A DNA stretch of 62,762 bases from an uncultured Wenzhouxiangella sp. (lineage in GTDB: Bacteria; Pseudomonadota; Gammaproteobacteria; Xanthomonadales; Wenzhouxiangellaceae). Each line of letters opens with the position of its first letter. Position 1 is the stretch's first letter. The stretch lies in the NCBI GenBank assembly GCA_913057195.1, contig CAJXNL010000013.1, forward strand, positions 1-62,762, given 5' to 3'. The position numbers and the translations under genes were made by a program. This document shows positions 3,850-57,436 of the stretch, in pieces. The notes beneath the pieces were generated by a model. The model did not search any database. It was not told the DNA's origin and saw only the letters and a program-made list of their open reading frames with translations.

Positions 3850-6318
3850 TCAGGACGTTGTCTTTTGCGCGGTGTTCTTTTTTGCCGAGGTTTTTTTGGC
3901 TGTCTTTTTCTTGCTTGCTTTCTTTTTGGTGGCTTTTTTCTTGGTCGTTTTTTTCTTCGTCGTTTTTTTCTTCGTGACTTTCTTAGTGGCGGCCTTTTTC
4001 TTGGCAGCTTTCTTTTTTCCGAATTTGCCGCGCCGCCCTTTCGGCGGGGCTTCAGCAATCAATTTTTGACAGGTCTCAAGGTCCAAGGTTTCGGGCTCGA
4101 CGTCTTTGGGAACCTTGGCGTTGACGTTGCCGTCGGTGATAAAAGGGCCGTAGCGACCTTTTAGAATCTCAATGCCTTTTTCAGGGAACGCTTTGATGAC
4201 GCGGTCTTTGAGCATTTGTTTGTGTTCGGCGATCAGCTCAAGCGCTTGCTCGCGTGTGACATCCAGAGGATCCACCTCTTTGAGCGAGACAAAGTTTCTT
4301 TGCCCATAGCGGACATAGGGACCAAACCGCCCAATGTTGGCTTGGATGGGCTCGCCCTCAGGTGTTTCGCCTAAGTCTCGTGGGAGCTTAAACAGTTCCA
4401 AGGCTTCTTCCAGGGTGATGTGGTCCATTTTTTGGCCCGGCCGAAGACCAGCGAATGCGGGCTTTTCATCATCTTCAGCCTGTCCAATTTGAGCGAATGG
4501 ACCATAGCGCCCGACCCTCACGATGACCGGTTTGCCGGTTTTAGGGTCGGTGCCCAGCTCCCGTGCCAACTGCGCTTCTTGGCGTGACACCGTGTCTTCT
4601 TTTTCATTGACGCGCTCGATAAACGGCGTCCAAAACTCTCTCAGTAACGGCCGCCACTCATGCTCTCCTCGGGAGATGGCATCGAGCTCATCTTCGAGTC
4701 GCGCGGTGAAATCGTAGTCGACGTACTGTTCAAAGTGTTTGGATAAGAACTTCGCCACGACCCGCCCCGTGGATGTCGGTGTGAACCGGCGGTTCTCAAG
4801 CTCCACGTATTCGCGGTCTTTCAGGGTTTGAATGATGGATGCATAGGTCGACGGTCTGCCGATGCCGTATTCTTCCAAGGCTTTCACCAAGCTGGCCTCT
4901 GAGTAACGCGGTGGCGGTTCGGTGAAATGTTGCTCAGGTGTGACCGCTTGAAGCGCCACCCGATCGCCTTCTTTGAGATCGGGCAGGCGATTGTCGGTAT
5001 CCGACTGCGCGTCCTGATATACCGATAAAAACCCCGGCTCAATCAAAATTGACCCGTTGGCTCTGAACGTCTCCTCGCCCACATCAAATTCAGCGGAGAC
5101 GGTGTCATAGACGGCCGGGATCATTTGACTGGCCACCGCTCGGTTCCAGATCAACTGATAAAGTCGAAATTGCTCTTCAGTCAGATGCGATTTGATTTTG
5201 AGCGGCGTTAACTTCGCCGAAGTGGGCCGAATGGACTCGTGCGCCTCTTGTGCATTTTTGGACTTTGACTGATAAAAATTCGGTTTGTCTGGCACCAAGT
5301 GCGCGCCGTAGTCAGACTGGATCACGCCCCGGATCTCGCCGAGCGCATCGTTTGAAAGCGCCACTGAATCGGTTCGCATGTAGGTGATCAGCCCTTGGTT
5401 TTCACCACCGCCGATATCAATGCCCTCATACAGCTGCTGGGCCGTGCGCATGGTTCGCTGCGTGGTAAACCGCAGGCGCCGCGCGGCCTCCTGTTGCAAC
5501 GTGGAGGTGATAAAGGGCGGTTGGGGACGGCGGCGTCTTTGGCTCTTTTTCATTCGAGCCAGGGTCAGCGTGGGGCCATTCGGCCCGGCATCGGCGTTGT
5601 CCTCAATGCGCTTGACCACATCGGTCGCGTCTTCATTGGAGGTGATGTCGAACTGTTCGAGCTTTTTGCCTCGGAGTTTGACCAGATTGGCTGAGAAGGG
5701 CTCGTCTTCATTGCCTAAGGTGGCGCCAATGGTCCAGTATTCCAGGGGATTGAACGCCTCAATCTCTTCCTCGCGCTCGACAATCATCCTAAGGGCAGGC
5801 GATTGCACCCGCCCGGCGGACAGGCCTCGGCTGACTTTTTTCCAAAGCAGCGGCGAGAGGTTGAACCCGACCAGATAGTCCAGGGCTCGTCTGGCCTGTT
5901 GGGCATCCACCAATGAGTCGGCCAGCGCTCTGGGGTGGGCCATGGCCTGATCGATGGCGCTTTTGGTGATCTCTGAAAACACCACCCGATGGATGGGCTT
6001 GTCGGCCGCAATGCCGCGCTCTTTTAGAATCTCGGCGATGTGCCAAGAAATGGCCTCACCCTCGCGATCTAAGTCGGTGGCGAGATAGACGGTGTTGGCC
6101 TTTTTTGCGCTGGAGACAATCTTGTCAACGTGCTTTTTGTTTCGATCGATGACTTTGTAGTGCATTTCAAAGTCATGCTCAGGGTCCACGGCCCCACCTT
6201 TGGGCACGAGGTCTCGAACATGGCCGTATGAGGCCAACACTTCAAAGTCTGATCCCAGGTATTTATTGATGGTGGTCGCTTTGGCTGGCGACTCAACGAT
6301 AAGAAGATTTTTAGCCAT
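3850..6318 (-). CDS. topA: DNA topoisomerase I (type IA) with lysine-rich tail
   Basis: Relaxes negative supercoils through a transient 5'-phosphotyrosine link. The 822-residue protein begins with a TOPRIM domain (LLIVESPAKATTINKYLG, then DLDREGEAISWHI), followed by the type IA core with the catalytic Tyr in GLITYMRTDSVALS and a GRPSTYA motif. The C-terminal part has three topoisomerase C-terminal repeats, each with a GR(Y/F)GP(F/Y) core, and no CxxC zinc ribbons, unlike the E. coli enzyme. It ends in about 58 residues dominated by Lys with Ala and Thr. The gene follows smg with a 1-base contact at 6318 and is probably cotranscribed with it. Confidence 0.97.
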   Translation of the reverse strand: MAKNLLIVESPAKATTINKYLGSDFEVLASYGHVRDLVPKGGAVDPEHDFEMHYKVIDRNKKHVDKIVSSAKKANTVYLATDLDREGEAISWHIAEILKERGIAADKPIHRVVFSEITKSAIDQAMAHPRALADSLVDAQQARRALDYLVGFNLSPLLWKKVSRGLSAGRVQSPALRMIVEREEEIEAFNPLEYWTIGATLGNEDEPFSANLVKLRGKKLEQFDITSNEDATDVVKRIEDNADAGPNGPTLTLARMKKSQRRRRPQPPFITSTLQQEAARRLRFTTQRTMRTAQQLYEGIDIGGGENQGLITYMRTDSVALSNDALGEIRGVIQSDYGAHLVPDKPNFYQSKSKNAQEAHESIRPTSAKLTPLKIKSHLTEEQFRLYQLIWNRAVASQMIPAVYDTVSAEFDVGEETFRANGSILIEPGFLSVYQDAQSDTDNRLPDLKEGDRVALQAVTPEQHFTEPPPRYSEASLVKALEEYGIGRPSTYASIIQTLKDREYVELENRRFTPTSTGRVVAKFLSKHFEQYVDYDFTARLEDELDAISRGEHEWRPLLREFWTPFIERVNEKEDTVSRQEAQLARELGTDPKTGKPVIVRVGRYGPFAQIGQAEDDEKPAFAGLRPGQKMDHITLEEALELFKLPRDLGETPEGEPIQANIGRFGPYVRYGQRNFVSLKEVDPLDVTREQALELIAEHKQMLKDRVIKAFPEKGIEILKGRYGPFITDGNVNAKVPKDVEPETLDLETCQKLIAEAPPKGRRGKFGKKKAAKKKAATKKVTKKKTTKKKTTKKKATKKKASKKKTAKKTSAKKNTAQKTTS
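3853..4020 (-). repeat. Degenerate KKKxTKK-type repeat encoding the TopA tail
   Basis: On the plus strand this stretch is a run of T-rich units of the TTTTTTC(T/G)T type, giving, on the coding strand, tandem Lys-Lys-Lys-Ala/Thr codons. It encodes a histone-H1-like basic tail. Codons vary between AAG and AAA, so the array is degenerate rather than a pure microsatellite. Confidence 0.75.
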
Positions 6319-6839
6319 CAGTGTCGGTAATCGCCTTCTTCATCGAACATCAAGTCTTCCATCCAAGCATAGTTGGCTTCCTGCCCTGGCTGGTTGAACA
6401 GCACCATCAACACCACCCACTTGACTTCTTCCATGGCGACTTCGTCGGCATCCAGCGCCATCAAGCGATCAATGACCAGTTCACGGCTGATGGGGTCAAG
6501 GACGCCGACGTTTTCGAGATAAAGCAGCAACCCGCGCGCGTCGACATCCAGTCGTTGCAACTCCTCGGCATTGAATATCCGACAGCTCTTGGGCACTCGA
6601 GTGGTTGGGAACGCCGGCATGCTGGCCGGTGTGTCTTCTTTGGGGCGATTCATGATCGCCACTTGGCGTTGCTCTGCCAGCTCATCCAGCCAGGCAAAGG
6701 CGCGCTCGATTTCTCTGGCTGAAAACCCGACCTCTTCAAGGCTGCGCGATAAAGTGGCGCGATCGGGGGTGGATTCAGGCTCTTCGTAGATGTAGTTCTC
6801 GAACAGATACATCAACAAATCGAGTACGTTTTCTTTCAT
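6318..6839 (-). CDS. smg: Smg / DUF494 family protein
   Basis: Smg is a conserved gammaproteobacterial and betaproteobacterial protein of unknown function, normally found between dprA and topA. The 173-residue product matches over its whole length: the N-terminal MKENVLDLLMYLFENYI, the acidic linker, and RIFNAEELQRLDVDARGLL with ELVIDRLMALDADEV in the second half. It has no signal peptide or membrane span. It lies directly upstream of topA, touching it at base 6318. The usual dprA partner is absent upstream, where a 347-base gap separates it from the divergent def gene. Confidence 0.92.
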   Translation of the reverse strand: MKENVLDLLMYLFENYIYEEPESTPDRATLSRSLEEVGFSAREIERAFAWLDELAEQRQVAIMNRPKEDTPASMPAFPTTRVPKSCRIFNAEELQRLDVDARGLLLYLENVGVLDPISRELVIDRLMALDADEVAMEEVKWVVLMVLFNQPGQEANYAWMEDLMFDEEGDYRH

Positions 6840-7186
6840 TCATGGATCCTTAAAAGCTTGCGAATCGGCGCCACAGCACGCCCACTTGACCCCGCTGAGC
6901 CATCGAACACAGTGACCAAAGCCAGGATACCGAATTATCCCACCCATTGTGGCTCGCTGGGCGCTGATTCGAGACCATCGACCGCCGTTTCGGGGTTGAG
7001 GAGCGTATTTTCACTATGCGGGTGAATGGCGACCAGGTCAACCCCTCGCGGCCGACGGCGTTGTGGGTTGGCATGGGAGGGTCGACAAAAATCTGTAAAA
7101 TGGAGACATTCAATTGCCAACGCCAATGTGCTGGACGGACCTTGGGCCGTGTCCAAGCCAAGCGTGATCAGTGACCCCAATATCTC
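6840..7186. other. Divergent intergenic region between smg and def (no gene seen)
   Basis: This is the only gap over 300 bases. Short open frames on the minus strand (about 80-100 codons) have no recognisable motif, and their codon use does not resemble the neighbours. In related genomes dprA and often a LysM gene occupy this position; I see no dprA motif here. The region must carry the promoters for smg-topA and for the def operon. An AT-rich block at 7085-7101 (containing TGTAAAAT) and GATAAT on the minus strand near 6938 are possible -10 elements, but neither has a convincing -35. Confidence 0.5.
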
Positions 7187-7687
7187 ATGGCCATGTTAGA
7201 CATATTAGAGTTTCCCGATCCCAGACTCAGACAAGTCGCCGCGCCGGTGACCACGGTGGATGCTGATGCCCGTGCGCTGGCCGAGGCGATGATTGAGACC
7301 ATGTATGCGGCCAAAGGCATCGGTCTGGCCGCGATTCAGGTCAATGATCGTCGCCGGGTGTTTGTGATGGACACCAGCCCCGGTCAGGATCAGCCACAGG
7401 TGTTTTTTAACCCCGAGATCATCGAGCGCAGTGGCGCCCAGGTCGGTGAGGAGGGGTGTCTGTCGATCCCCGGTGTGGTGGCTGATGTCGAACGTGCTGA
7501 CGCGATTAAGGTTCGCGCCTTGGGCTTGGATGGTCAAGCCTTTGAGCTTGAGGCCGACGGGTTGAGCGCGGTCTGCATTCAGCATGAGATTGATCACTTG
7601 GATGGCAAGGTGTTTCTTGATCGCTTATCGCCCTTGAAGCGACGGATGCTCCAAAAGAAATACCAAAAACACCGTCAGCAGGCCTAA
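7187..7687 (+). CDS. def: Peptide deformylase
   Basis: Removes the N-formyl group from nascent proteins at the ribosome exit. The 166-residue enzyme has the three diagnostic motifs: [17 protein letters not shown] with the metal-ligand Cys, and QHEIDHLDG (HExxH) with the other two ligands and the catalytic Glu. The start at 7187 gives [15 protein letters not shown], matching the family N-terminus; a second ATG six bases later is possible. It heads the def-fmt-rsmB operon, with fmt starting 9 bases after its stop. Confidence 0.97.
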
Positions 7688-7696
7688 GCGACGGGC

Positions 7697-8626
7697 ATGA
7701 CGCTCAATATTCTCTTTGCTGGCACGCCTGAGTTTGGGCTGCCGTCACTGGCCCGTTTGATCGATCTGGGACACACACCGTCTGCGGTGTTGACCCAGCC
7801 CGATCGCCCGGCCGGCCGCGGACGCCGGCTGCAGGTCAGCCCGATCAAGCAGCTGGCCACAGACCATGGCATCGAAGTCTTGCAACCGTCTACCCTCAAA
7901 GGGTTTGACCTCACCGATCGATCGGCCGACCTATTGGTGACGGCCGCCTATGGCCTGCTGTTGCCCAAAGCCGTGCTGGATGCCCCGCGCTTGGGGTGTT
8001 GGAACCTCCATGCGTCCTTGTTGCCCCGCTGGCGCGGAGCCAGCCCCATTCAACAAGCCATCTTGGCCGGTGATCCGCAAACTGGGATTTCTTTGATGCA
8101 GATGGATGAGGGTTTGGACACGGGGCCTGTGCTGCTGCAAAAGGCGTTGGACATTGGCGAGGCCGAGACCGCCGGTGAATTACACGATCGCCTGTCGTGG
8201 CTGGCGGCCGAGGTGTTGGCCGAAGCCATCCAAGCGCTGGAAGCCGATGAATTGCCGCCGGCGTGGCCGCAGCCTGCCACTGGCGTCAGCCACGCGCCGC
8301 TGATCACCAAAGCCAATGCCAAGCTTGATTGGGCCCAGCCCGCCGAGCAGTTGGCACGCGCGGTGCGTGCCTACAACCCGTGGCCCGTAGCGCATACGGA
8401 CATTTTTGCCGAGCGCGGGGTGGCCACGCTGCGCATTCTCGAGGCCCGTGCCGTGCCCATGCCCCCCGATCACTCGGGGCGAGCGGGGGCGATTGTCCCG
8501 AGCGATGGCTCGGCATTGATGGTGGCTTGCGGCGAGGGTGCGTTGGCCATTGATCGGCTGCAAGTCCCTGGCAAACGCCCAGTGGCTGCTCGAGACTTTC
8601 TCAATGCCCGCCCCGACTGGCGCTGA
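7697..8626 (+). CDS. fmt: Methionyl-tRNA formyltransferase
   Basis: Transfers a formyl group from 10-formyl-THF to Met-tRNAfMet for translation initiation. The 309-residue product starts MTLNILFAGTPEFG, has the folate-binding/catalytic segment with NLHASLLPRWRGASPIQ (conserved Asn, His and Arg) and the catalytic Asp in LMQMDEGLDTGPVL, followed by the C-terminal tRNA-binding domain with RAYNPWP. Length is normal. Its end overlaps the rsmB start at 8604 by 23 bases. Pairing with def is functional: formylation and deformylation of the initiator Met. Confidence 0.97.
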   Translation: MTLNILFAGTPEFGLPSLARLIDLGHTPSAVLTQPDRPAGRGRRLQVSPIKQLATDHGIEVLQPSTLKGFDLTDRSADLLVTAAYGLLLPKAVLDAPRLGCWNLHASLLPRWRGASPIQQAILAGDPQTGISLMQMDEGLDTGPVLLQKALDIGEAETAGELHDRLSWLAAEVLAEAIQALEADELPPAWPQPATGVSHAPLITKANAKLDWAQPAEQLARAVRAYNPWPVAHTDIFAERGVATLRILEARAVPMPPDHSGRAGAIVPSDGSALMVACGEGALAIDRLQVPGKRPVAARDFLNARPDWR

Positions 8627-48224: not shown

Positions 48225-48524
48225 ATGGATCCACATGCCAAAGAGAAATTCCAACGGGCTTTTTATCGCCGGTTCCAATCGCCTTTCGAGCCACCCCAGA
48301 TGAGCATCTGGGCACGCATTGGCGTGTTTTTGGTCACCATCGCTGTGCTGTCAGTGAGCTTCATGCTGGGGCTGGTGTTTCTGGCTGTGGCCGTGGGGCT
48401 GGTGGCTTTGGGCTTGATCGCGCTGGGCATTCGTCGGCTCCTGGGCAGCAAAGCCGCCCCGCCCAATCAGGATGATGACATTCGTGTCACGTATCGCGTG
48501 GTGCATCGTCGCAAAGACGACTAG
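48225..48524 (+). CDS. Small membrane protein of unknown function
   Basis: A 99-residue protein with a basic, aromatic N-terminus (HAKEKFQRAFYRRFQSPFEPP), two tightly spaced membrane segments (about 28-72), and a hydrophilic C-terminus ending VVHRRKDD. No motif is recognised. The start codon is preceded by AGGGAG about 12 bases upstream. It stands alone after a 169-base spacer and converges with the Mrp-like operon. Probably real, judging from codon use and topology, but uncharacterised. Confidence 0.6.
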   Translation: MDPHAKEKFQRAFYRRFQSPFEPPQMSIWARIGVFLVTIAVLSVSFMLGLVFLAVAVGLVALGLIALGIRRLLGSKAAPPNQDDDIRVTYRVVHRRKDD

Positions 48525-48578: not shown

Positions 48579-50291
48579 TCAGTGGTTGAGGATGCCCACA
48601 ATCAGCAGCACCGCAAAAATGACGCCGACCCAAAGCGCCATCGCACCGATGGGCCAAGACTGACCCAGGTGGTCCAGAGGCCATTTGGGTTGAGCCACCC
48701 ACCGAGCGAGCTGACGCAGCGGCGCCGTGATGGCCTCGAGGATGGCCTGGCCAAGCCGGTGCAATGCCTGCGGCAGTTTGACCAATAGAGCGCGATAAAC
48801 CACCTCGGCATCAGGCAAACCCCCGGTTGAGGGGTGGGGCAAACCCAAACCAAAACGAGCCAAACCGGCATACACCAACCCTGCACCCCCCAAAAGCATG
48901 AGTTGAGCGATGACTTTTTTGCTGGTGAGCACGGTGGTGGTGCTGTCAAACGGACGGATCAAATCCAGTAGGCCTGGCATCAGTCCGGCCATCAGCAACA
49001 TCAGGGCAGGGATCATCAACGCCAGCTGCTGGATGCCCGCGACGGGTCGGGGCGGCGCTTGGCCCGGTTCGGTGGGAGGCGTGATGAACACGCGCCAGAA
49101 AATGCGCACCCAGGCGTACAGCAGCCCAAGCACCGACAGCGACACCAACACCCAATAGAGCCCGCCGGGCAAAGTTGACGTCTCAATGGCATCGAGCATC
49201 AGTTTCTTGCTCATAAAACCGCCGGTCAGTGGCACGGCCATGTTCGCCAACGCGGCAACCGCGACACAAGCGGCCACGATCGGCCAAGGTCGGCCCAAAG
49301 CCCCCAACCGATTGGAATCGGTGGTGTTGAACTGCCCCCATATGAGGGCCATGGCCATGAACATTGCCATTTTAAAGAGCACATCCATGACCACATGCAA
49401 AGCGACGCCGTCCAGGGCCGTGGGCGTGCCCACGCCGATGGCCACCACCATCAGGCCGAGTTGGACCATCATCGAGTAGGCCAATACGCGTCGAAGGTTG
49501 TTCTCCAGCAACACGTGGGCCACCGGCCAAATCGCCATCACCACGCCAATGGGCACCAGCGCCGTCTCCCCAGGGAAGACCCGCATCAAAGCGACCACCC
49601 CCACTTTGGTTGTGACCGCCACCAGCACGGCCAAACCCGCCAGGGACGCTTTCGGATAGGCGTCGACCAACCAAAGGTGAACCAAAGGAAACCCCGCTTT
49701 GATGCCAAACCCGATCAGCAGCAGCGCGCCCGCCAGTCCCTCGAGGGCCACTGGCCCCACCATCCAGCTGCCGGTGTGGCTGGCGTGGGTCAAGATCCCG
49801 GTCAACACCGTCACGCCCGCAGCGATCTGGAACAACAAATAGCGCACACCGGCGGCGGTGGCCGCGTGATCGCGCCGGGCAAAAATCAGCGCTGAGCCGC
49901 TGAGGGCAATGATCTCAAAACAGATAAAAAAGCTGATCCAATCCCCTGCCAGAACAGTGCCGATGCCGCCGGCGAAATAGGCGAGCATCGCCCCATGCTG
50001 CCAACGGTCGGTCACCGGGGCGATAAACAGCGCCCCAATCAAGGCCGCGACATGAAACAAACCCACCATCAGCAGACCCAAGGCATCGGGCTGAATGGGG
50101 ATTAAGGTGTAGTCCATCCACTCGAGGCTGACATTCACCGCAGGACTTAAGGTTTGCCAGGCGATCCAAGCCGACACCAGCGGGGTGGCCACGGTGAGCC
50201 ACCACAGCTGGCGCTTGGGCACCACCGCCATCAAGCACGCGGCGATCAAAAAGATGACCGTGGGTGAAAGCAAGAGCATCCAATCACTCAT
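48579..50291 (-). CDS. MrpD/NuoL-type proton-conducting subunit with lateral-helix tail
   Basis: A 570-residue antiporter-like subunit, last gene of the Mrp-like operon. The proton-path residues of the MrpD/NuoLMN family are kept: Glu in FFICFEIIALSGS, Lys in IGFGIKAGFPLVHLWL, and Lys in GGFMSKKLML. After about 14 spans comes a further membrane segment, then an amphipathic helical stretch (about residues 490-540) and a final membrane anchor (AMALWVGVIFAVLLIVGIL), reminiscent of the lateral helix plus terminal span of NuoL and MrpA. The start overlaps the 38-residue small ORF by 8 bases. Confidence 0.88.
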   Translation of the reverse strand: MSDWMLLLSPTVIFLIAACLMAVVPKRQLWWLTVATPLVSAWIAWQTLSPAVNVSLEWMDYTLIPIQPDALGLLMVGLFHVAALIGALFIAPVTDRWQHGAMLAYFAGGIGTVLAGDWISFFICFEIIALSGSALIFARRDHAATAAGVRYLLFQIAAGVTVLTGILTHASHTGSWMVGPVALEGLAGALLLIGFGIKAGFPLVHLWLVDAYPKASLAGLAVLVAVTTKVGVVALMRVFPGETALVPIGVVMAIWPVAHVLLENNLRRVLAYSMMVQLGLMVVAIGVGTPTALDGVALHVVMDVLFKMAMFMAMALIWGQFNTTDSNRLGALGRPWPIVAACVAVAALANMAVPLTGGFMSKKLMLDAIETSTLPGGLYWVLVSLSVLGLLYAWVRIFWRVFITPPTEPGQAPPRPVAGIQQLALMIPALMLLMAGLMPGLLDLIRPFDSTTTVLTSKKVIAQLMLLGGAGLVYAGLARFGLGLPHPSTGGLPDAEVVYRALLVKLPQALHRLGQAILEAITAPLRQLARWVAQPKWPLDHLGQSWPIGAMALWVGVIFAVLLIVGILNH

Positions 50292-50400
50292 CGCTGAGTG
50301 TCCCGTGGTGCTTCATCGCTGATCGGGCGATCGCCACAATGGTCAGCGCCACCACAACGGCCGCCGCGCCCACCAGCGCATAACTGATCATCGCCATCAT
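50284..50400 (-). CDS. 38-residue single-span membrane protein in the Mrp-like operon
   Basis: An unannotated small ORF. It starts MMAMISYALVGAAAVVVALT, giving one hydrophobic helix (about residues 4-25), then a basic and polar tail ending GTLSDE. Its ATG overlaps the stop of the upstream antiporter subunit by 4 bases (ATGA, 50397-50400), an AAAGGA ribosome-binding site lies 8 bases before it, and its stop overlaps the start of the downstream subunit by 8 bases (50284-50291). Such two-sided coupling strongly supports translation. It could be an accessory subunit like the single-helix proteins of complex I, but there is no homology to judge from. Confidence 0.72.
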   Translation of the reverse strand: MMAMISYALVGAAAVVVALTIVAIARSAMKHHGTLSDE

Positions 50401-51863
50401 AAAACCAGTCCTTTGGCCAGCTCATACAGTGGCTCAGGGTAGAAAAACAGCAGCACGCACCCACCGGCGGTCACGCCCATGGCAATTCTCTGCGCCAGCG
50501 GGGCTTCGTGCAGACCCTCAGTGGGGACACCCTCGGCGGCCGGTGCAAAAAAACCTCGGAGCGGAATGATCAACAGATACAAAATGTTGAGCAATGAACT
50601 GATCAACAGCGCACCCACCACGATCCACTGCTCGGCTTGGAGGCTTCCCAGCAGCAGATACCATTTTGACCACATGCCCCCGAATATCGGCAAGCCAATA
50701 ATCGACAAAATGCCAACGGTCATGAAGGCGAAGGTGTAGGGCATCACCCGACCCAAACCATCAAACTGCTGAATCTTCTTGCGATTGGAGGCGACTTGAA
50801 TCGCGCCGGCAGAAAAGAACAGCGTGATCTTGGCCACTGCGTGCATGGCCATTTGCATCACCGCACCGATGACGGCCAGTGGCGTGGCCACCATGGCCCC
50901 CACAACGACATAGCTCAATTGCGCCACTGTGGAGTAGGCCAAACGTGCTTTGAAATCGTCTAACGTGAGTGCCACCAACGATGCCGCCACAATCGTAAAG
51001 GCCGCGACCCAAGACACCCAAATGCCTGCGCCGGTGTCGCTCAATGTCTCCACACCGAACACGAAGATCACCACCTTCAAAACGGTGAACACCCCGGCTT
51101 TGACCACGGCCACCGCATGCAACAACGCGCTGACGGGCGCGGGGGCAACCATGGCTGAGGGCAGCCATTTGTGGAAAGGCATCAACGCGGCTTTGCCAAT
51201 GCCGAAGGCAAAAAGGCCCAGCAACACGGGGACCCAGTGGGGCGCAATGTGCCCATCGACAATGCCGCCGGATTGAAAGGTTAAGGTGCCCGTGGCGGCA
51301 TAGGTCCAAATGATGGCTGGCAGCAGGAGTCCCACTGACGAGGCGAGCAAATAAAACAGATACACCCGCCCCCCACGTCGGGCCTCTTCGGAGCCTGAGT
51401 GGGTGACCAGAGGATACGTCGATAAGGTCAAAATCTCATAGAAGATAAACAGCGTGAGCAAGTTGGCGCTGAATGCCATGCCGGCAGCAGCGCCCAAGGC
51501 GATGGCATAGCAGGCAAAAAAGCGTGCCAAATGCGGGTAGTCCATATGCTTCATGTAGCTTTGGGCATACAGCGTCGCCACCAGCCACAGGCTGGCGCCG
51601 ATCAAAGCAAACAGCAGGCCCAAAGGCTCGAGCGCAAACCCAATCGACACGCCAGGCAACAGTTCACCCAACGTTTGGGTGGCACCCAGCCCTGACATCG
51701 TGGGTTCGATGTGTCCACAAACGGCCACAAAAAAAGCAATCGAAGCCAGCCATCCCAACCCATCACGCAGTCTGGGGTGGTTGTGAGACGCCGCGATCGC
51801 CGCGGCACCGATAAAGGGAATGGCGATCACCCACATCGGGGCCAGTGTCGGAAGCGCGGCCAT
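50397..51863 (-). CDS. MrpD/NuoM-type proton-conducting antiporter subunit (second)
   Basis: A 488-residue subunit with about 14 spans and the complete family signatures: Glu in FIFYEILTLSTYPLVTH, Lys in FGIGKAALMPFHKWLPSAM with the AP-x-PVSALLHA motif, and Lys in GGMWSKWYLL. It begins at the base immediately after the stop of the first MrpD-type gene and ends overlapping the 38-residue ORF. Its SALLHAVAVVKAG motif is closer to NuoM/MrpD than to NuoL. It lacks the C-terminal lateral helix seen in the following subunit. Confidence 0.9.
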   Translation of the reverse strand: MAALPTLAPMWVIAIPFIGAAAIAASHNHPRLRDGLGWLASIAFFVAVCGHIEPTMSGLGATQTLGELLPGVSIGFALEPLGLLFALIGASLWLVATLYAQSYMKHMDYPHLARFFACYAIALGAAAGMAFSANLLTLFIFYEILTLSTYPLVTHSGSEEARRGGRVYLFYLLASSVGLLLPAIIWTYAATGTLTFQSGGIVDGHIAPHWVPVLLGLFAFGIGKAALMPFHKWLPSAMVAPAPVSALLHAVAVVKAGVFTVLKVVIFVFGVETLSDTGAGIWVSWVAAFTIVAASLVALTLDDFKARLAYSTVAQLSYVVVGAMVATPLAVIGAVMQMAMHAVAKITLFFSAGAIQVASNRKKIQQFDGLGRVMPYTFAFMTVGILSIIGLPIFGGMWSKWYLLLGSLQAEQWIVVGALLISSLLNILYLLIIPLRGFFAPAAEGVPTEGLHEAPLAQRIAMGVTAGGCVLLFFYPEPLYELAKGLVL

Positions 51864-53336
51864 CTAAAACCCGCCCAACAGCACTTGTGCGGCTTGCTCG
51901 GCCGCGCCCAGACTCAGCCGCGTGTCGAGGCCAAAATAGATATTCAGTGCGACCATCAACCACAGCGGAATAAGCAATGCCTTGGGGGCCTCCGCCACGG
52001 GTGATTGTTGATCACGGGGCGCTTGAAACCACGCGGCTTCAATGACGCGCCAGATGTACACCACCGCCATCAACGATGTGATCAAAATCAGCACAACCAG
52101 CCACACCTGGCCGGCATCCAGCGCCCCCCAGATCAGATACCACTTGCTCACAAAGCCAGCGGTGGCAGGCACGCCGATTAAAGACAAACCCAACAGTGCA
52201 AACGCGGTCATTGTCCATGGCATCTGGCGTCCCACGCCATAAAATGCTTCAATTCGGGCGGAGCCGGTGCGGTACATCACGGTGCCCAGGGCCATAAACA
52301 GGCCGGCTTTCATCAACGCGTGATTGAATAAATGCACAAATGTGGCGGTCAGTCCGATGATGCTCACCAATGCCACCCCCAAGACCAGATAACCCACCTG
52401 AGCCACCGATGAATAGGCCATCATTCGTTTCAAATTGGGCTCAAACATCGCCACCCAAGATCCCACGACCATGCCTGCCACTGCCAAGACCATCATGATG
52501 TCGGCCAGCGGCAATGCCCCAAAACTGTAGTCCCCACCGAAAATGGTGTAGATGAACCGAAGCATCACATAAAGCGCCACTTTCGTTGCGGTGCCGGCCA
52601 AGAACACGGTGATCACATTGGGCGCAAAGGCATAGGCGTTGGGGAGCCACAAATGCAACGGCAGCAGCGCCAGTTTTAAGCCCAAGCCCACGATGATGAA
52701 CGCAAAGCCTGCGCGCACGGCGTTGGTGTCGGCCACCGCCGGGATTCGTTCAGCCAAATCGGCCATGTTGAGGGTACCGGTCATCATGTACAAAAAGCCG
52801 ATCCCAATGAGAATGAAGGTCGCACCGATCGTGCCCATGATCAGATATCGAAACGCCGCCAACAGGCCACGGCGATCTTGCCCATAGGCCACCAGCGCAT
52901 ACGTGGACAGCGACGAGATTTCTAAAAAGACAAACACGTTAAACGCATCGCCGGTCAACGTGATGCCCAAAAGGCCGGCCAACGCGAGCAAAAACAGGGC
53001 ATAGAAAATCCCTTGTCGTTCAGGAATCTCTTGGTCTGCGCTGCGTTTGCCCCAGAGCAGGGCCAGTGAAGCGATGCCCGAGACAATTAAAGCCACAAGC
53101 GCATTGGCATGGTCGACTCGATACTCGATGCCCATGGGGGGCGCCCAATTGCCAAACGCGTAGCGCATCGGCTCTGGGCCCAAGCCCAACCAAACCAAGG
53201 CGGCCAGGATTGTGCTGGCGGTCGCGGTGGCGAAGGCCAAAAGCCATGGGGCGGTTTTGCCGGGCAACAGCGCGCTCACCCCAGACAAAATCAAGGGCAT
53301 CAAGACGATAAACGGCATCCACTGGGTCAGCGTCAT
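51864..53336 (-). CDS. mrpD: Mrp antiporter subunit D
   Basis: A 490-residue subunit that is the best MrpD match of the three antiporter-like proteins, placed directly after MrpC as in all Mrp systems. It has Glu in NVFVFLEISSLSTYALVAYG, Lys in VGLGLKLALLPLHLWLPNAYA with PNVITVFLAGTATKV, and Lys in GFVSKWYLI. ATG 53336 is used rather than an upstream codon that would overlap mrpC. In Mrp complexes MrpD carries one of the proton paths of Na+/H+ antiport. Confidence 0.93.
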   Translation of the reverse strand: MTLTQWMPFIVLMPLILSGVSALLPGKTAPWLLAFATATASTILAALVWLGLGPEPMRYAFGNWAPPMGIEYRVDHANALVALIVSGIASLALLWGKRSADQEIPERQGIFYALFLLALAGLLGITLTGDAFNVFVFLEISSLSTYALVAYGQDRRGLLAAFRYLIMGTIGATFILIGIGFLYMMTGTLNMADLAERIPAVADTNAVRAGFAFIIVGLGLKLALLPLHLWLPNAYAFAPNVITVFLAGTATKVALYVMLRFIYTIFGGDYSFGALPLADIMMVLAVAGMVVGSWVAMFEPNLKRMMAYSSVAQVGYLVLGVALVSIIGLTATFVHLFNHALMKAGLFMALGTVMYRTGSARIEAFYGVGRQMPWTMTAFALLGLSLIGVPATAGFVSKWYLIWGALDAGQVWLVVLILITSLMAVVYIWRVIEAAWFQAPRDQQSPVAEAPKALLIPLWLMVALNIYFGLDTRLSLGAAEQAAQVLLGGF

Positions 53337-53343
53337 GGCGGGC

Positions 53344-53709
53344 TTAAGGCTCCTCAGGCTCGTGGCTGGGATCACCAATCAAGTCGTCTTCAATGGTGCC
53401 GTAGGCCTCTTGAATCCGAACGGCCAGCGCCAATCCCACCGCGGTGGTTGCCACGCCCACCACGATCGCTGTGAGGATGAGCACGTGCGGCAGCGGGTTT
53501 GAGTGCAGCGCCACCCCGTCTCGCAAAATCGGTGTTGCCCCACCGATGACCTTGCCGGCGGAGATGAACATAATGAACACCGAGGTTTGAAACAGCCCCA
53601 GGCTCATCAGCTTTTTGTCCATGTTGCCGTGCGCGATCACGCCGTAAAAGCCGATCATCATCAGCAACACCACAACCCAATAGTTGAAGTAGCTCAAAAT
53701 CACCGTCAT
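53344..53709 (-). CDS. mrpC: Mrp antiporter subunit C (NuoK-like)
   Basis: A 121-residue protein with three spans, homologous to NuoK/MbhG. Recognisable features are the glycine in FYGVIAHGNMDKKLMSLGL and the block HSNPLPHVLILTAIVVGVATTAVGLALAVRI, the MrpC signature with the DPLPQALVLTAIVI-type motif. The start overlaps mrpB by 4 bases. The C-terminus is acidic and Pro-rich. Confidence 0.93.
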   Translation of the reverse strand: MTVILSYFNYWVVVLLMMIGFYGVIAHGNMDKKLMSLGLFQTSVFIMFISAGKVIGGATPILRDGVALHSNPLPHVLILTAIVVGVATTAVGLALAVRIQEAYGTIEDDLIGDPSHEPEEP

Positions 53710-54152
53710 GGCGCGTCCTCATCTGTCCCGTCTTGCTCGCGTTTGCGACGGGCAAACATCGTAAAAATCAGCATGACGACCGTGGCCACTGTGATGCCAA
53801 TGCCCAGCTCGACGGTGATGATGCCTGCTTGCTGCGCGGCTTTGGGATCGGCCAACAGGGTCGAAAAGTCCAAAAAGAGCCCGCCTTGAGCCACATTTAA
53901 AAGCCCGACTGCGCAATAGAGCATCACGCCCAACACCATCAGGACAAACATGGCCCGTTCGGGGATGACCTCAAGGCCGAGGTCAAGCCCAAAAATCAAC
54001 ACAAACAAAATCCATGCGGCGGCAAACACCACACCCGCTTGGAATCCCCCGCCGGGCGAGTACTCGCCATGGAACTGTATGTAAAGCGCAAACAGCATGA
54101 TCAATGGAATCAAAAAGCGCGCAACAATGCGAAGGATTTTGTTGTCACTCAT
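53706..54152 (-). CDS. mrpB: Mrp antiporter subunit B (MnhB domain)
   Basis: A 148-residue four-span protein with the MnhB signature HGEYSPGGGFQAGVVFAAAW and a hydrophilic C-terminal tail (RRKREQDGTDEDAP). In Mrp complexes this subunit packs against the MrpA C-terminal region. ATG 54152 is chosen because it gives MSDNKILRIVARFLIPLIM; it overlaps the stop of the DUF4040 gene by 8 bases. Confidence 0.93.
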   Translation of the reverse strand: MSDNKILRIVARFLIPLIMLFALYIQFHGEYSPGGGFQAGVVFAAAWILFVLIFGLDLGLEVIPERAMFVLMVLGVMLYCAVGLLNVAQGGLFLDFSTLLADPKAAQQAGIITVELGIGITVATVVMLIFTMFARRKREQDGTDEDAP

Positions 54153-54681
54153 GGCGATGCCCCATGCCATTGCGTCGGCGCCGTCGGGTGGCGGGGACAC
54201 TCAATAGCGCATAGACCGCCAGTCCCGCTGTCAAAATCACAAAACCCTCGCCCAAGGTGTCGATTGACCGATAGCTCGCCAAAACCGCAGCCACCATGTT
54301 GGGGATGCCCATATCGTCGTAGGTGCTGGCGATGTATTGCGAACCCACATGGGCCTGTGCGGGGCTGGTGGCATCGCCAAATTCGGGGAGATCGAGGGTG
54401 GCATAGACCAAAAAAGCGCCTGTGATGCCCACCACAGCCAGCGCAAGCCAGTGGTGTCGAGCTGAGCTGTTGGGCGGTGCCTCGCGTCGGTCAACCATTG
54501 TCAAAGTGGCCAAAAACAGCAGCGTCGAAATCCCCGCGCCGACAGCGGCCTCGGTCAACGCCACATCACCGGCGTCGAGCACGACAAACAGCCCCGCTGA
54601 AATCAGGGAGTAAATGGCAAACAGCATCGATGCGGTGAATAAATCACGCACATGGACGATGGCGATGGCCACCACCACCAA
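54145..54681 (-). CDS. DUF4040/MbhD-MbhE protein, equivalent of the MrpA C-terminus
   Basis: Contains an MbhD-like DUF4040 domain (VHVRDLFTASMLFAIYSLISAGLF, then DVALTEAAVGAGISTLLFLAT) and an MbhE-like domain (NMVAAVLASYRSIDTLGEGFVILTA), the two units that form the C-terminal part of canonical MrpA. The first standard start codon is TTG 54681, giving 178 residues, but that truncates the first membrane helix. Reading further upstream, a GGAG box (54729-54726) sits 5 bases before ATC 54720 and in-frame codons encode IIEYLIDIGLLSF, the expected N-terminus. The true start is therefore probably at 54720 or 54717 with a non-standard ATC codon. Confidence 0.88.
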   Translation of the reverse strand: MVVVAIAIVHVRDLFTASMLFAIYSLISAGLFVVLDAGDVALTEAAVGAGISTLLFLATLTMVDRREAPPNSSARHHWLALAVVGITGAFLVYATLDLPEFGDATSPAQAHVGSQYIASTYDDMGIPNMVAAVLASYRSIDTLGEGFVILTAGLAVYALLSVPATRRRRRNGMGHRHE

Positions 54682-54704
54682 GAAACTTAAAAGCCCAATG
54701 TCGA

Positions 54705-55067
54705 TTAAGTATTCGATGATTCGTTCTCCGAACCGTGGTGGTCATTCGGTGGCGCTGTTTGGCTGTCTTGAGTGGGCTGGACCCCATCACTTAAAGCCGC
54801 CCGCGCGAGTGCGTGCGTGGCGGTGGGTGCTGTGAACAATAAGAACAACAAAATGAGTGCAAGCTTGAGCGTCAACAGACTCAAGCCCGTTTGCATGATC
54901 AGGCCGGCGATGATCATGAGTGCGCACAGCGTGTCGGTCATGCCGGCAGCGTGTAAGCGGCTGTAGAAGTCGGGAAAGCGCAAAACACCCAACGCACCCA
55001 ACACGCCGATCAGCCCTCCACCCAGGAGCAAGCCACCTGAGATCAAGTCAATCACCACTTCACTCAT
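54705..55067 (-). CDS. mrpG: Mrp antiporter subunit G
   Basis: A 120-residue three-span protein with the MnhG/PhaG signature GVLGALGVLRFPDFYSRLHAAGM and LLFLLFTAPTATHALARAA. The C-terminal tail is hydrophilic (Gln, Asp, His-rich). ATG 55067 gives MSEVVIDLISGG and overlaps mrpF by 8 bases. The stop overlaps the proposed ATC start of the DUF4040 gene. Confidence 0.93.
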   Translation of the reverse strand: MSEVVIDLISGGLLLGGGLIGVLGALGVLRFPDFYSRLHAAGMTDTLCALMIIAGLIMQTGLSLLTLKLALILLFLLFTAPTATHALARAALSDGVQPTQDSQTAPPNDHHGSENESSNT

Positions 55068-55365
55068 GGGCGTGATCTGAGCCAGAGGGTGGGGTGTGGG
55101 TGGCGGCCAAGTCACCACAGCGAGCGAGCTTCATGACGGCAACGACCGCTAAAAAGTTGATCAGCGCATACACCAAGGCCACGTCGACCAAGTCGCCGTT
55201 GCCCGAGAACACGGAAATCAGTGCCACCACCAACACGGTCTTGGTGCCAATCACGTTCACCGCCAAAATTCGGTCATAAATGGTGGGGCCTTTGAGCGCG
55301 CGGACCAGGGCCAAAGCCATGGTCAAAAAAACCAGCAGCACTGAAATGACATACACCCCCATCAT
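55060..55365 (-). CDS. mrpF: Mrp antiporter subunit F
   Basis: A 101-residue three-span protein with the MrpF signature RALKGPTIYDRILAVNVIGTKTV and DVALVYALINFLAVVAVMKLA, which contains the conserved Asp-x-Ala-x-x-Tyr-Ala. Start ATG 55365 overlaps the mrpE stop (ATGA). MrpF homologues exist in Mbh complexes (MbhB) and are suggested to affect cation or bile-salt efflux in some bacteria. Confidence 0.92.
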   Translation of the reverse strand: MMGVYVISVLLVFLTMALALVRALKGPTIYDRILAVNVIGTKTVLVVALISVFSGNGDLVDVALVYALINFLAVVAVMKLARCGDLAATHTPPSGSDHAHE

Positions 55366-55856
55366 GGCGATGGCCGCTTCGATTGCGCTTGGCCTTCCAA
55401 CCACAGCACTTTGTTGGCCATTTGACCCGACAAGAGCCCCTCAGCCGAGGCGTCATCGAGCGCGTGCACCCGCATCTTGTCGGGCGTGATGTCTAGCGTC
55501 ACAGTGCCTGGCGTTAACGTGCACGAGTTGGCGTATGTCACTCGGGACACTGCGGTGTGTTGGCACACGGGCACCTCAATGACGTGCGGGCGAATCTTGC
55601 CCGGCGACAGCACGCGCCGCGCAACGTGGAGGTTGGCGGTGACAATCTGACCCACCAGCCAAGCCCAGTAAGCAAAAAGCTTGGGGAAATAAAGTCCTGG
55701 GTTGTGCTCGACGCCCACCACGTCCATGCGAAGTGACAACCACACCACCAGAACCACTGAGCTGGCGCCCAAAATAAATAGAAGCGGCTTGTAGACGCCG
55801 GAGATGGCGAGCCACAAAGCAATGAGGGTCAATGTCAAAGACAAGGCGTAGCGCAT
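55362..55856 (-). CDS. mrpE: Mrp antiporter subunit E
   Basis: A 164-residue protein with two N-terminal membrane segments (ALSLTLTLIALWLAISG; FILGASSVVLVVWLSLRM), then LFAYWAWLVGQIVTANLHVARRVLSP and a cytoplasmic beta-rich domain with LTPGTVTLDITPDKMRVHALD, the MrpE/MbhA signature. It is the first gene of the ten-gene minus-strand operon. The space upstream to the cardiolipin synthase gene is only 80 bases, so the promoter must lie there. Confidence 0.92.
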   Translation of the reverse strand: MRYALSLTLTLIALWLAISGVYKPLLFILGASSVVLVVWLSLRMDVVGVEHNPGLYFPKLFAYWAWLVGQIVTANLHVARRVLSPGKIRPHVIEVPVCQHTAVSRVTYANSCTLTPGTVTLDITPDKMRVHALDDASAEGLLSGQMANKVLWLEGQAQSKRPSP

Positions 55857-55936: not shown

Positions 55937-57436
55937 TCACAGATAAGGTGAGAACAGCCAGCAGATCGAGTCGCGAAGGCGGGTCACAAACCCGCGACCG
56001 TCCACGTCGTCCAACGTCACCGCGCGGCCCGCCTGTGCGGCCGTCTCAACCAGCGCATGCATCTCCTCGGCAAAGGCGTCGCCATAGACTTCCACTTGAA
56101 GCTCAAAGTTGAGCCGAAGACTCCGGACGTCCCAGTTGGCTGATCCAATGACCGCATAGGCTTGATCGATGACCAGGACTTTCCCGTGGTGAAACGGTGG
56201 GGGTTGATAGAACACCCGCACCCCACGAAACAAAAGTTCCCAGAGCATGTTTTGAGTCGCCCAGTGAACAAACGGGAGGTTGTTGTCACTCGGCAACACC
56301 AGCACCACATCAATGCCCCGAATGGCCGCGCCTTGGATGGCGCTGACCAGCTCTCTGGGGGGCAAAAAGTAGGGCGTCATGATCCTCACCGAGTGCCGGG
56401 CCTGCGACAGGGCGGCAATAAACAGCATGGTCAGTCGGTCGAGGTCTTCGTCCGGTCCGTCGGTGATCACCCGCGCTTGCACCGGGTGCCCCAAATTGGC
56501 CTCGACCGACCGAGGGGTGCAGGCGGGTGGCAACGGGTGGGCATAGGCACTGGCCATGGCCCAGAGGCGCTCAAACTCCTGGCGCAATTGGGTGACGGCG
56601 GGTCCAATCAGTCGAAAATGCAAATCATTGGTGGGGGTGGTGTTGTTTGGGTCGTCAATTCGGTGCCGGTGCGAGATGTTGATGCCTCCAGTCATCGCAA
56701 ACTCACCATCCACAATGAAGATCTTGTGGTGGCTGCGCATGTTGATCGACAGCGATGGCGGCAACAGCGACGGCGGCAAGAACAGCCCCACGGTCGCGCC
56801 GGCCTGTCTGAGCGCTCGAGTGATTGGGGGCATCGAATAGAATCGACCGACGCCATCGATGATGATACAGACCGCCACGCCCCGCGCGACCGCGCGCTCG
56901 ATGGCTTGAACAAAGGCCTTCCCTGTCTCATCGCGATCGAAAATGTAGGTGGCGATCAAGACCTGGTGTTCGGCGGCGTCGATGGCGCTGAGCATTGCCT
57001 CAAAGGTGGCTTGGCCACCCACGAAAGTCTCCACAACGTTGTCTGTGACCAGCGGGTGGCGGCTTAGGGCCTGTCCGGCTTGCCGGAGCGGATGTCCGGG
57101 GTCGGCGGCGTGGGCCTGGCGCTCGGCATCGGGGCTCAAGTGATGGGGCGGGGTCTTTGACGAGGGGGCGTTGGGCCGTTCACTTTGATGGTGCAGAGGG
57201 CCGCCTCGTTCGGTGCCAAAGACGGCCAGGTTTAAGCCCAAGCGTTGGGCCCGGCCCCGCGCTCGGTTCAGCCCGAACAAGACGTACAGCACAGGCCCGG
57301 CCAAAGGAAACAGCAAACACACCGCCACCCAGCCAAACGCCGCTCGGGAGTCTCGCTTAAACAGCAGCGCATGCAGTGCTGTGGCGGGGGCCAGCACGGC
57401 ATGGAACAGCAGGACGATCCACGTTTCAGCGGTCAT
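55937..57436 (-). CDS. cls: Cardiolipin synthase (phospholipase D family)
   Basis: Condenses phosphatidylglycerol into cardiolipin at the inner membrane. The 499-residue protein has two N-terminal membrane segments (within residues 5-57), a poorly conserved linker (80-120), and two HKD motifs: [18 protein letters not shown] near 230 and [20 protein letters not shown] near 415. [13 protein letters not shown] and [15 protein letters not shown] match the Cls family. It is divergent from metK and lies upstream of the Mrp-like operon in the same direction. Which Cls paralogue it represents is not clear. Confidence 0.93.

Follow-up and report, generated by a model that had tools for sequence, protein, structure and literature searches.

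The window, that is, the whole stretch of 62,762 nucleotides that was analysed, has its nearest named relatives among Wenzhouxiangella and Wenzhouxiangellaceae assemblies and carries on its minus strand an Mrp-type operon in the order E-F-G-DE-B-C-D1-D2-smORF-D3. The first antiporter gene of the operon encodes an MnhE/MrpE-like protein (55362..55856) and is followed by an MnhF/MrpF-like gene (55060..55365), assigned by its position and the conserved order, an MnhG/MrpG-like gene (54705..55067), an MbhD/MbhE-like gene (DE; 54145..54711, start uncertain), which represents the C-terminal part of MrpA as a separate gene, and genes of MnhB/MrpB-like (53706..54152) and MnhC/MrpC-like (NuoK-like; 53344..53709) proteins. 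Three genes of antiporter-like subunits complete the operon: D1 (51864..53336), which is MrpD/NuoN-like and has 490 aa counted from the ATG, D2 (50397..51863; 488 aa, PRK08375-type) and D3 (48579..50291; 570 aa, PRK12668-type, MrpA-N/NuoL-like). The adjacency of MnhB, C, E and G with D-type subunits identifies the operon as that of an Mrp-type antiporter, and since no redox genes (NuoB/C/D/E/F/G/I) were found among the operon genes read, it was not assigned to complex I. A cardiolipin synthase-like gene (55937-57436, minus strand) lies directly upstream of mnhE, as it does in two related loci, L045 and L049. At the other end, a 99-aa membrane-protein ORF (48225-48524, plus strand) converges on the end of D3, and similar-looking ORFs were seen by eye in the same position in L003, L004, L012 and L024.

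In its AlphaFold model (mean pLDDT 79, 9 sequences), D3 contains a many-helix core, after which come helices at residues 457-479, 495-529 and 546-568, of which the second and third are mostly of low confidence. This end appears to follow the pattern TM15 - lateral helix - TM16, the middle helix being predicted as amphipathic. In a fold search against the 'pdb' library, the best match by E-value was the B. pseudofirmus MrpA chain 7qru_A, with a TM-score of 0.76 relative to query length, and with many other antiporter-like chains of the NuoL and MrpD types nearly as good. D2 matches MrpA (6z16_A) only up to residue 517 of the latter, suggesting that D2 carries no C-terminal extension of the TM15 - lateral helix - TM16 type. 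We infer that the complex would hold three antiporter-like subunits, D1, D2 and D3, as in complex I.

A probable coupled small gene between D2 and D3

The gene directly between D2 and D3 is smORF (50284..50400, minus strand), which was described in the initial annotation as an overlooked small membrane subunit coupled on both sides. It has 38 codons (read from 50400 to 50284 on the minus strand: MMAMISYALVGAAAVVVALTIVAIARSAMKHHGTLSDE) and ends in the tail ARSAMKHHGTLSDE. Its start codon (50400) and the stop codon of D2 share the letters ATGA, its stop lies in an overlap of 8 bases with D3, and it spans the gap of 105 bases between the two genes, all as had been stated. The AAAGGA noted 8 bases before the ATG is present and is also kept in L002, yet it falls within D2 codons. 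Hydropathy agrees with the earlier prediction of one hydrophobic stretch (maximal 19-residue Kyte-Doolittle value 2.5), whereas the D3-linked family considered below typically has two predicted transmembrane helices.

Two-sided coupling is weak evidence of coding, because 11,662 of 20,000 dinucleotide-shuffled gaps also yielded a coupled ORF, in a control that keeps the real flanks and hence takes the overlapping ATG as given. Hydrophobic coupled ORFs were rare in the same shuffles: a Kyte-Doolittle value of 1.6 was attained in 35 of 20,000 and a value of 2.5 in 0 of 20,000, the best ORF being taken here too, within a narrower search range than in the junction scan of the relatives.

Codon usage was scored with a model of 18 window genes and leave-one-gene-out references. 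The smORF frame scored 0.603 bits per codon, a value not exceeded by 245 of 269 in-frame pieces (0.358 +/- 0.187) and not attained by any of 538 out-of-frame pieces (-0.280 +/- 0.186). The other sense frames of the same stretch scored -0.085 and -0.163, and the antisense frames -0.019, 0.333 and -0.238. The small ORFs of the related loci L002 and L003 also looked coding by the usage of their own neighbours, with 0 of 152 out-of-frame pieces as high in each case (references not leave-one-out).

The nearest relative of the window stands at 67% in D3. The L002 ORF, also of 38 aa, shares 15 of 38 residues with smORF, 9 of them through synonymous codons, and the similarity is specific to the frame: aligned in frame, the pair has a BLOSUM sum of 72, against -28 and -6 for the two remaining sense frames and no more than 28 for any antisense frame. 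For the window and L003 the sum is 32 in frame and at most 17 in other frames; for L002 and L003 it is 27, hardly above the 25 of one antisense frame. Segment-wise scrambles reached the observed identity in 0 of 20,000 cases for the window and L002 (15 residues), in 33 of 20,000 for the window and L003 (11) and in 114 of 20,000 for L002 and L003 (9).

These data bear on the possibility that the gap is non-coding and the ORF due to chance. Length and coupling alone are not significant, one antisense frame reaches the 0.333 given above, and the codon differences between the window and L002 number 20, 16 and 22 of 38 at positions 1, 2 and 3, although saturation makes these counts uninformative; against this, the codon usage of the ORF frame, the frame-specific similarity and the presence of a small ORF at every readable junction (see below) make a non-coding gap very improbable. 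Thus, smORF is very probably a real small gene, albeit a putative one known from its sequence.

A proposed conserved partner of D3 in related genomes

A match to D3 was found in 51 of 101 relatives; one partial match (G082) was left out, and of the remaining 50 places three (L018, L023, L033) are truncated at the end of a contig. Each of the 47 readable D2/D3 junctions contains a small hydrophobic ORF, and the frameshifts, stops or lost helix that, according to the initial annotation, would speak against coding were seen at none of them, given that the most hydrophobic allowed ORF was chosen at each junction, which favours the hypothesis. In 41 of the 47 cases the ORF has 81-128 aa and two predicted helices, typically with an RPEDYY-like tail, the helix counts resting on a hydropathy rule. 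Four distant loci (L050-L053; Actinomycetota and Gemmatimonadota) also have a small hydrophobic ORF at this place. In L066, where D2 is broken into two pieces, the junction rule chose the wrong ORF; this locus and six duplicates (L045-L049, L090) were left out of the set of 78 proteins used for profile scores and the charge pattern. A profile of 17 two-helix members gave 65 matches in 62 of 369 genomes of the class, representing 46 of 272 genera.

The AlphaFold model of the 68-aa protein of L047 has helices at residues 3-22 and 35-58 (mean pLDDT 73, pTM 0.43) and is consistent with a hairpin, although it is not strong evidence of one. Searches of Pfam and NCBIfam with the window peptide, two two-helix members and the L004, L002 and L003 proteins returned nothing above the cut-off, a search of PDB sequences with the family profile returned unrelated proteins at best (E 0.49), and tblastn of the window peptide against plasmids gave no match. 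The small subunit is unnamed in the available portions of the literature searched, among the matches listed (including PMC7419157, PMC5703873, PMC7684303, PMC7677001 and PMC12361115), which is not a claim of its absence from print. The two-helix small protein kept beside D3 appears, from these sequence comparisons, to be conserved, widespread and without a name in the libraries searched.

Gene order was examined at 64 profile-hit loci (30 + 34), the inspection of class-wide loci covering the D1-D2-small-D3 end. Sixty of them have D2-small-D3, and in two (L071, L128) the contig ends before D3. In L075/L094 an NhaD antiporter gene stands between D2 and the small gene, leaving the small-D3 pair intact (L094:2721-5956), and L126 carries two small-D3 pairs (155-1954, 2347-2628, 5771-7612, 7566-7826), the two genes overlapping in one pair and standing about 390 bases apart in the other, and neither D2 nor any further recognised Mrp gene occurs within 9.8 kb. 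ORFs resembling a sensor kinase and a response regulator, named by eye, lie between the two pairs of L126. The small gene adjoins D3 in all 62 loci where this is visible.

For REARRANGEMENTS, the full order E-F-G-DE-B-C-D1-D2-small-D3 was found in the window, L045, L046, L047, L049 and L051, and in L094 with NhaD inserted. The Actinomycetota loci L050, L052 and L053 have the block first (D2-small-D3-E-F-G-DE-B-C-D1). On plasmids of Sinorhizobium meliloti (pB) and Phyllobacterium, the block is situated between nuoK and nuoM of complex I operons (L092:5671-16189, L093:3728-12246) in the order nuoJ-nuoK-D2-small-D3-nuoM-nuoN-nuoABC..., with no nuoL in the stretch examined in either operon. The rhizobial proteins (WP_100673255.1 of S. 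meliloti and WP_100002722.1 of Phyllobacterium) resemble smORF in being encoded between D2 and D3 with overlapping ends, and over the aligned part the S. meliloti stretch shares 46% identity with a family member from the Gammaproteobacteria; they differ from smORF, with its 38 aa and single helix, in having 84 aa and belonging to a nuo operon. The small gene, of normal length here, is annotated as 'hypothetical protein' in both plasmid records examined, so that the risk of being overlooked falls mainly on the shortened forms.

Judged by gene order, D2-small-D3 moves as a unit, of which D3 and the small gene are the most stable part. The constant place of the small gene beside D3 and the occurrence of the block in rhizobial complex I operons suggest that the small protein is probably a putative accessory helix of D3, the MrpA-N/NuoL-like subunit. 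Another explanation could be that the frame is kept open only for coupled re-initiation from D2 to D3 and that the peptide itself has no role. The overlaps of ATGA before and 8 nucleotides after the ORF and the rapid change of its sequence would fit such a spacer, but directly abutting genes would couple equally well, the hydrophobic helix is kept, synonymous substitutions are seen, and a two-helix protein of 81-128 aa with invariant residues, as found in the relatives, would be needless; this explanation is therefore very unlikely.

Proposed reduction from two helices to one

In the window's own group the junction ORFs encode two helices in L005 and L006 (68 aa each) and L004 (72 aa), and a single helix in L003 (52 aa), L002 and the window, L001 (38 aa each). 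The tail of the L005 protein reads ...LLERPEDEYDAD, and an RPEDYY-like tail is absent from all three one-helix forms. A profile of 68 two-helix members gave 24.0 bits for L005 (E 2e-6 for 1000 sequences), 14.3 for L004 and 7.3 for L006, and 4.7, 3.7 and 3.2 bits for L003, the window and L002, respectively; for these three in the same order, 27, 274 and 56 of 1000 of their own scrambles were as good, as were 0, 5 and 8 of 210 transmembrane windows of other window proteins. With L004-L006 added to the profile, the scores were 9.9, 5.7 and 7.7 bits (scrambles as good: 0, 130 and 5 of 1000; transmembrane windows: 0, 1 and 0 of 210), and with L050-L053 added too, 10.2, 5.0 and 6.4 bits (scrambles: 1, 318 and 24 of 1000; transmembrane windows: 0, 3 and 1 of 210). 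The window peptide had no significant match to the family profile and did not rise above its own scrambles. In whole genomes, the 17-member profile found the junction of G040, which is L005, at E=1.1e-4 and that of G011 weakly (0.49), gave no match in G000, G007 and G021 up to E 10, and missed the junction of G035, where its sole match lay on another contig.

In the D3 tree (83 rows, a quick build with a midpoint root), the one-helix loci L001-L003 form a clade (SH-aLRT 100), which joins L004 (98), then L006 (84) and then L005 (100), the shift to one helix lying on branches flagged as long. The one-helix form is nested inside the two-helix form, as would be expected of common descent through intermediates. 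Thus, what ties the window peptide to the family is its position, the in-register match to L002, the tree and the intermediates, and not direct sequence similarity. The smORF is likely to be a reduced form of the unnamed, conserved partner of D3; the earlier view of a small membrane subunit stands insofar as the gene is most likely real, in frame and kept at its junction, although it appears to be a shortened two-helix protein and not an isolated oddity.

Since the window peptide itself resembles the family only weakly and open coupled frames are frequent among the shuffles with real flanks, it could also be that the two-helix subunit was lost and that the coupled gap gave rise de novo to an unrelated protein with a single helix. 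Such a replacement is unlikely, given the rarity of hydrophobic coupled ORFs by chance (the 35 shuffles mentioned above), the intermediate length of the tree-adjacent L004-L006, the L003 protein, which outscores every one of its 1000 scrambles when the profile includes L004-L006 and 999 of 1000 when the wider one is used, and the alignment of the retained helix with helix 2 (YALVG / YALFG / YAVTG) along with charges distributed as in a C-in helix. Outside this group, the protein of L053 (Ilumatobacteraceae; 5805-5990), with 62 aa and one helix, scored 17.2 bits on the 68-member profile, stands apart from the other one-helix loci in the D3 tree and seems to have undergone independently the reduction proposed for smORF.

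Possible role of the small subunit

By the positive-inside rule, the absence of K/R from residues 1-8 of the one-helix forms, with 1-4 K/R at residues 24-36, suggests an N-out/C-in topology, which is probably that of smORF and is the orientation proposed for helix 2 in the hairpin. The ancestral small subunit would have comprised helix 1, an outer loop, helix 2 and a cytosolic RPEDYY-like tail; the window lineage probably dropped helix 1 and the loop, retaining helix 2 and, after it, a short charged tail. Helix 2, with basic residues towards the predicted cytosolic side, forms the conserved core of this subunit, and the apparent double loss suggests that helix 1 may be the dispensable half.

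The host complex would be a cation/H+ antiporter of the Mrp type containing three antiporter-like subunits, in which the accessory helix would most likely pack against D3, and perhaps D2, and help to assemble or hold the D2/D3 pair; the coupling on both sides (ATGA before, 8 nucleotides after) would deliver the small protein in step with D2 and D3. The simplest role would be that of a clamp or assembly factor at the D3 surface, possibly where D3 faces D2, and a structural or assembly role of this putative subunit is somewhat favoured. Taken as a whole, the explanation that a two-helix subunit was reduced to a one-helix accessory protein of D3 in an Mrp-type antiporter is given a probability of about 0.7.

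Mrp antiporters and complex I have a common membrane arm, and Chadwick et al. reportedly described in 2018 a complex I with four antiporter-like subunits, the extra ones being situated in the membrane arm. The window shares with it the extra antiporter-like subunits and differs in that redox genes were absent among the operon genes read. The likeness of smORF to the supernumerary subunits of complex I, which had been invoked earlier, may be regarded as an analogy. A further comparison is with MbhI of the Pyrococcus MBH: MbhI, like smORF, is a separate small membrane polypeptide accompanying an antiporter-like subunit, but it carries the lateral helix HL with two TMs, whereas in the window HL appears to belong to D3 and smORF is without it. 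According to the MBS paper (PMC7684303), antiporter-like subunits are joined to one another through the lateral helix and TM16, and in MBH the TMs and the lateral helix are part of MbhI, a protein of its own. An identification of smORF as MbhI was rejected in view of its 38 aa and one helix and because the family profile matched no PDB sequence significantly. With the canonical Mrp antiporter MrpA-G (PMC7419157, PMC5703873) the window has in common the E, F, G, B, C, MrpD-like and MrpA-like components; in the window, in contrast, MrpA is split into D3 and DE, and there are two further components, the small subunit and D2, the latter as a third antiporter-like subunit.

It is possible, at about even odds, that D3 and its tiny helical partner represent a portable pump module, in which the small protein is an obligate subunit of D3-type antiporter subunits that had escaped recognition and one helix of it is enough, and which would be one building block passed between Mrp antiporters and the rhizobial complex I. 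To our knowledge, the subunit inventory of the membrane arm is usually regarded as complete. A conserved small protein that follows one antiporter-like subunit through operon rearrangements would be a missing subunit for structural biologists to look for, its one-helix form may serve as a natural minimal version for testing, and the case of smORF suggests that a small subunit can turn invisible to annotation by shrinking.
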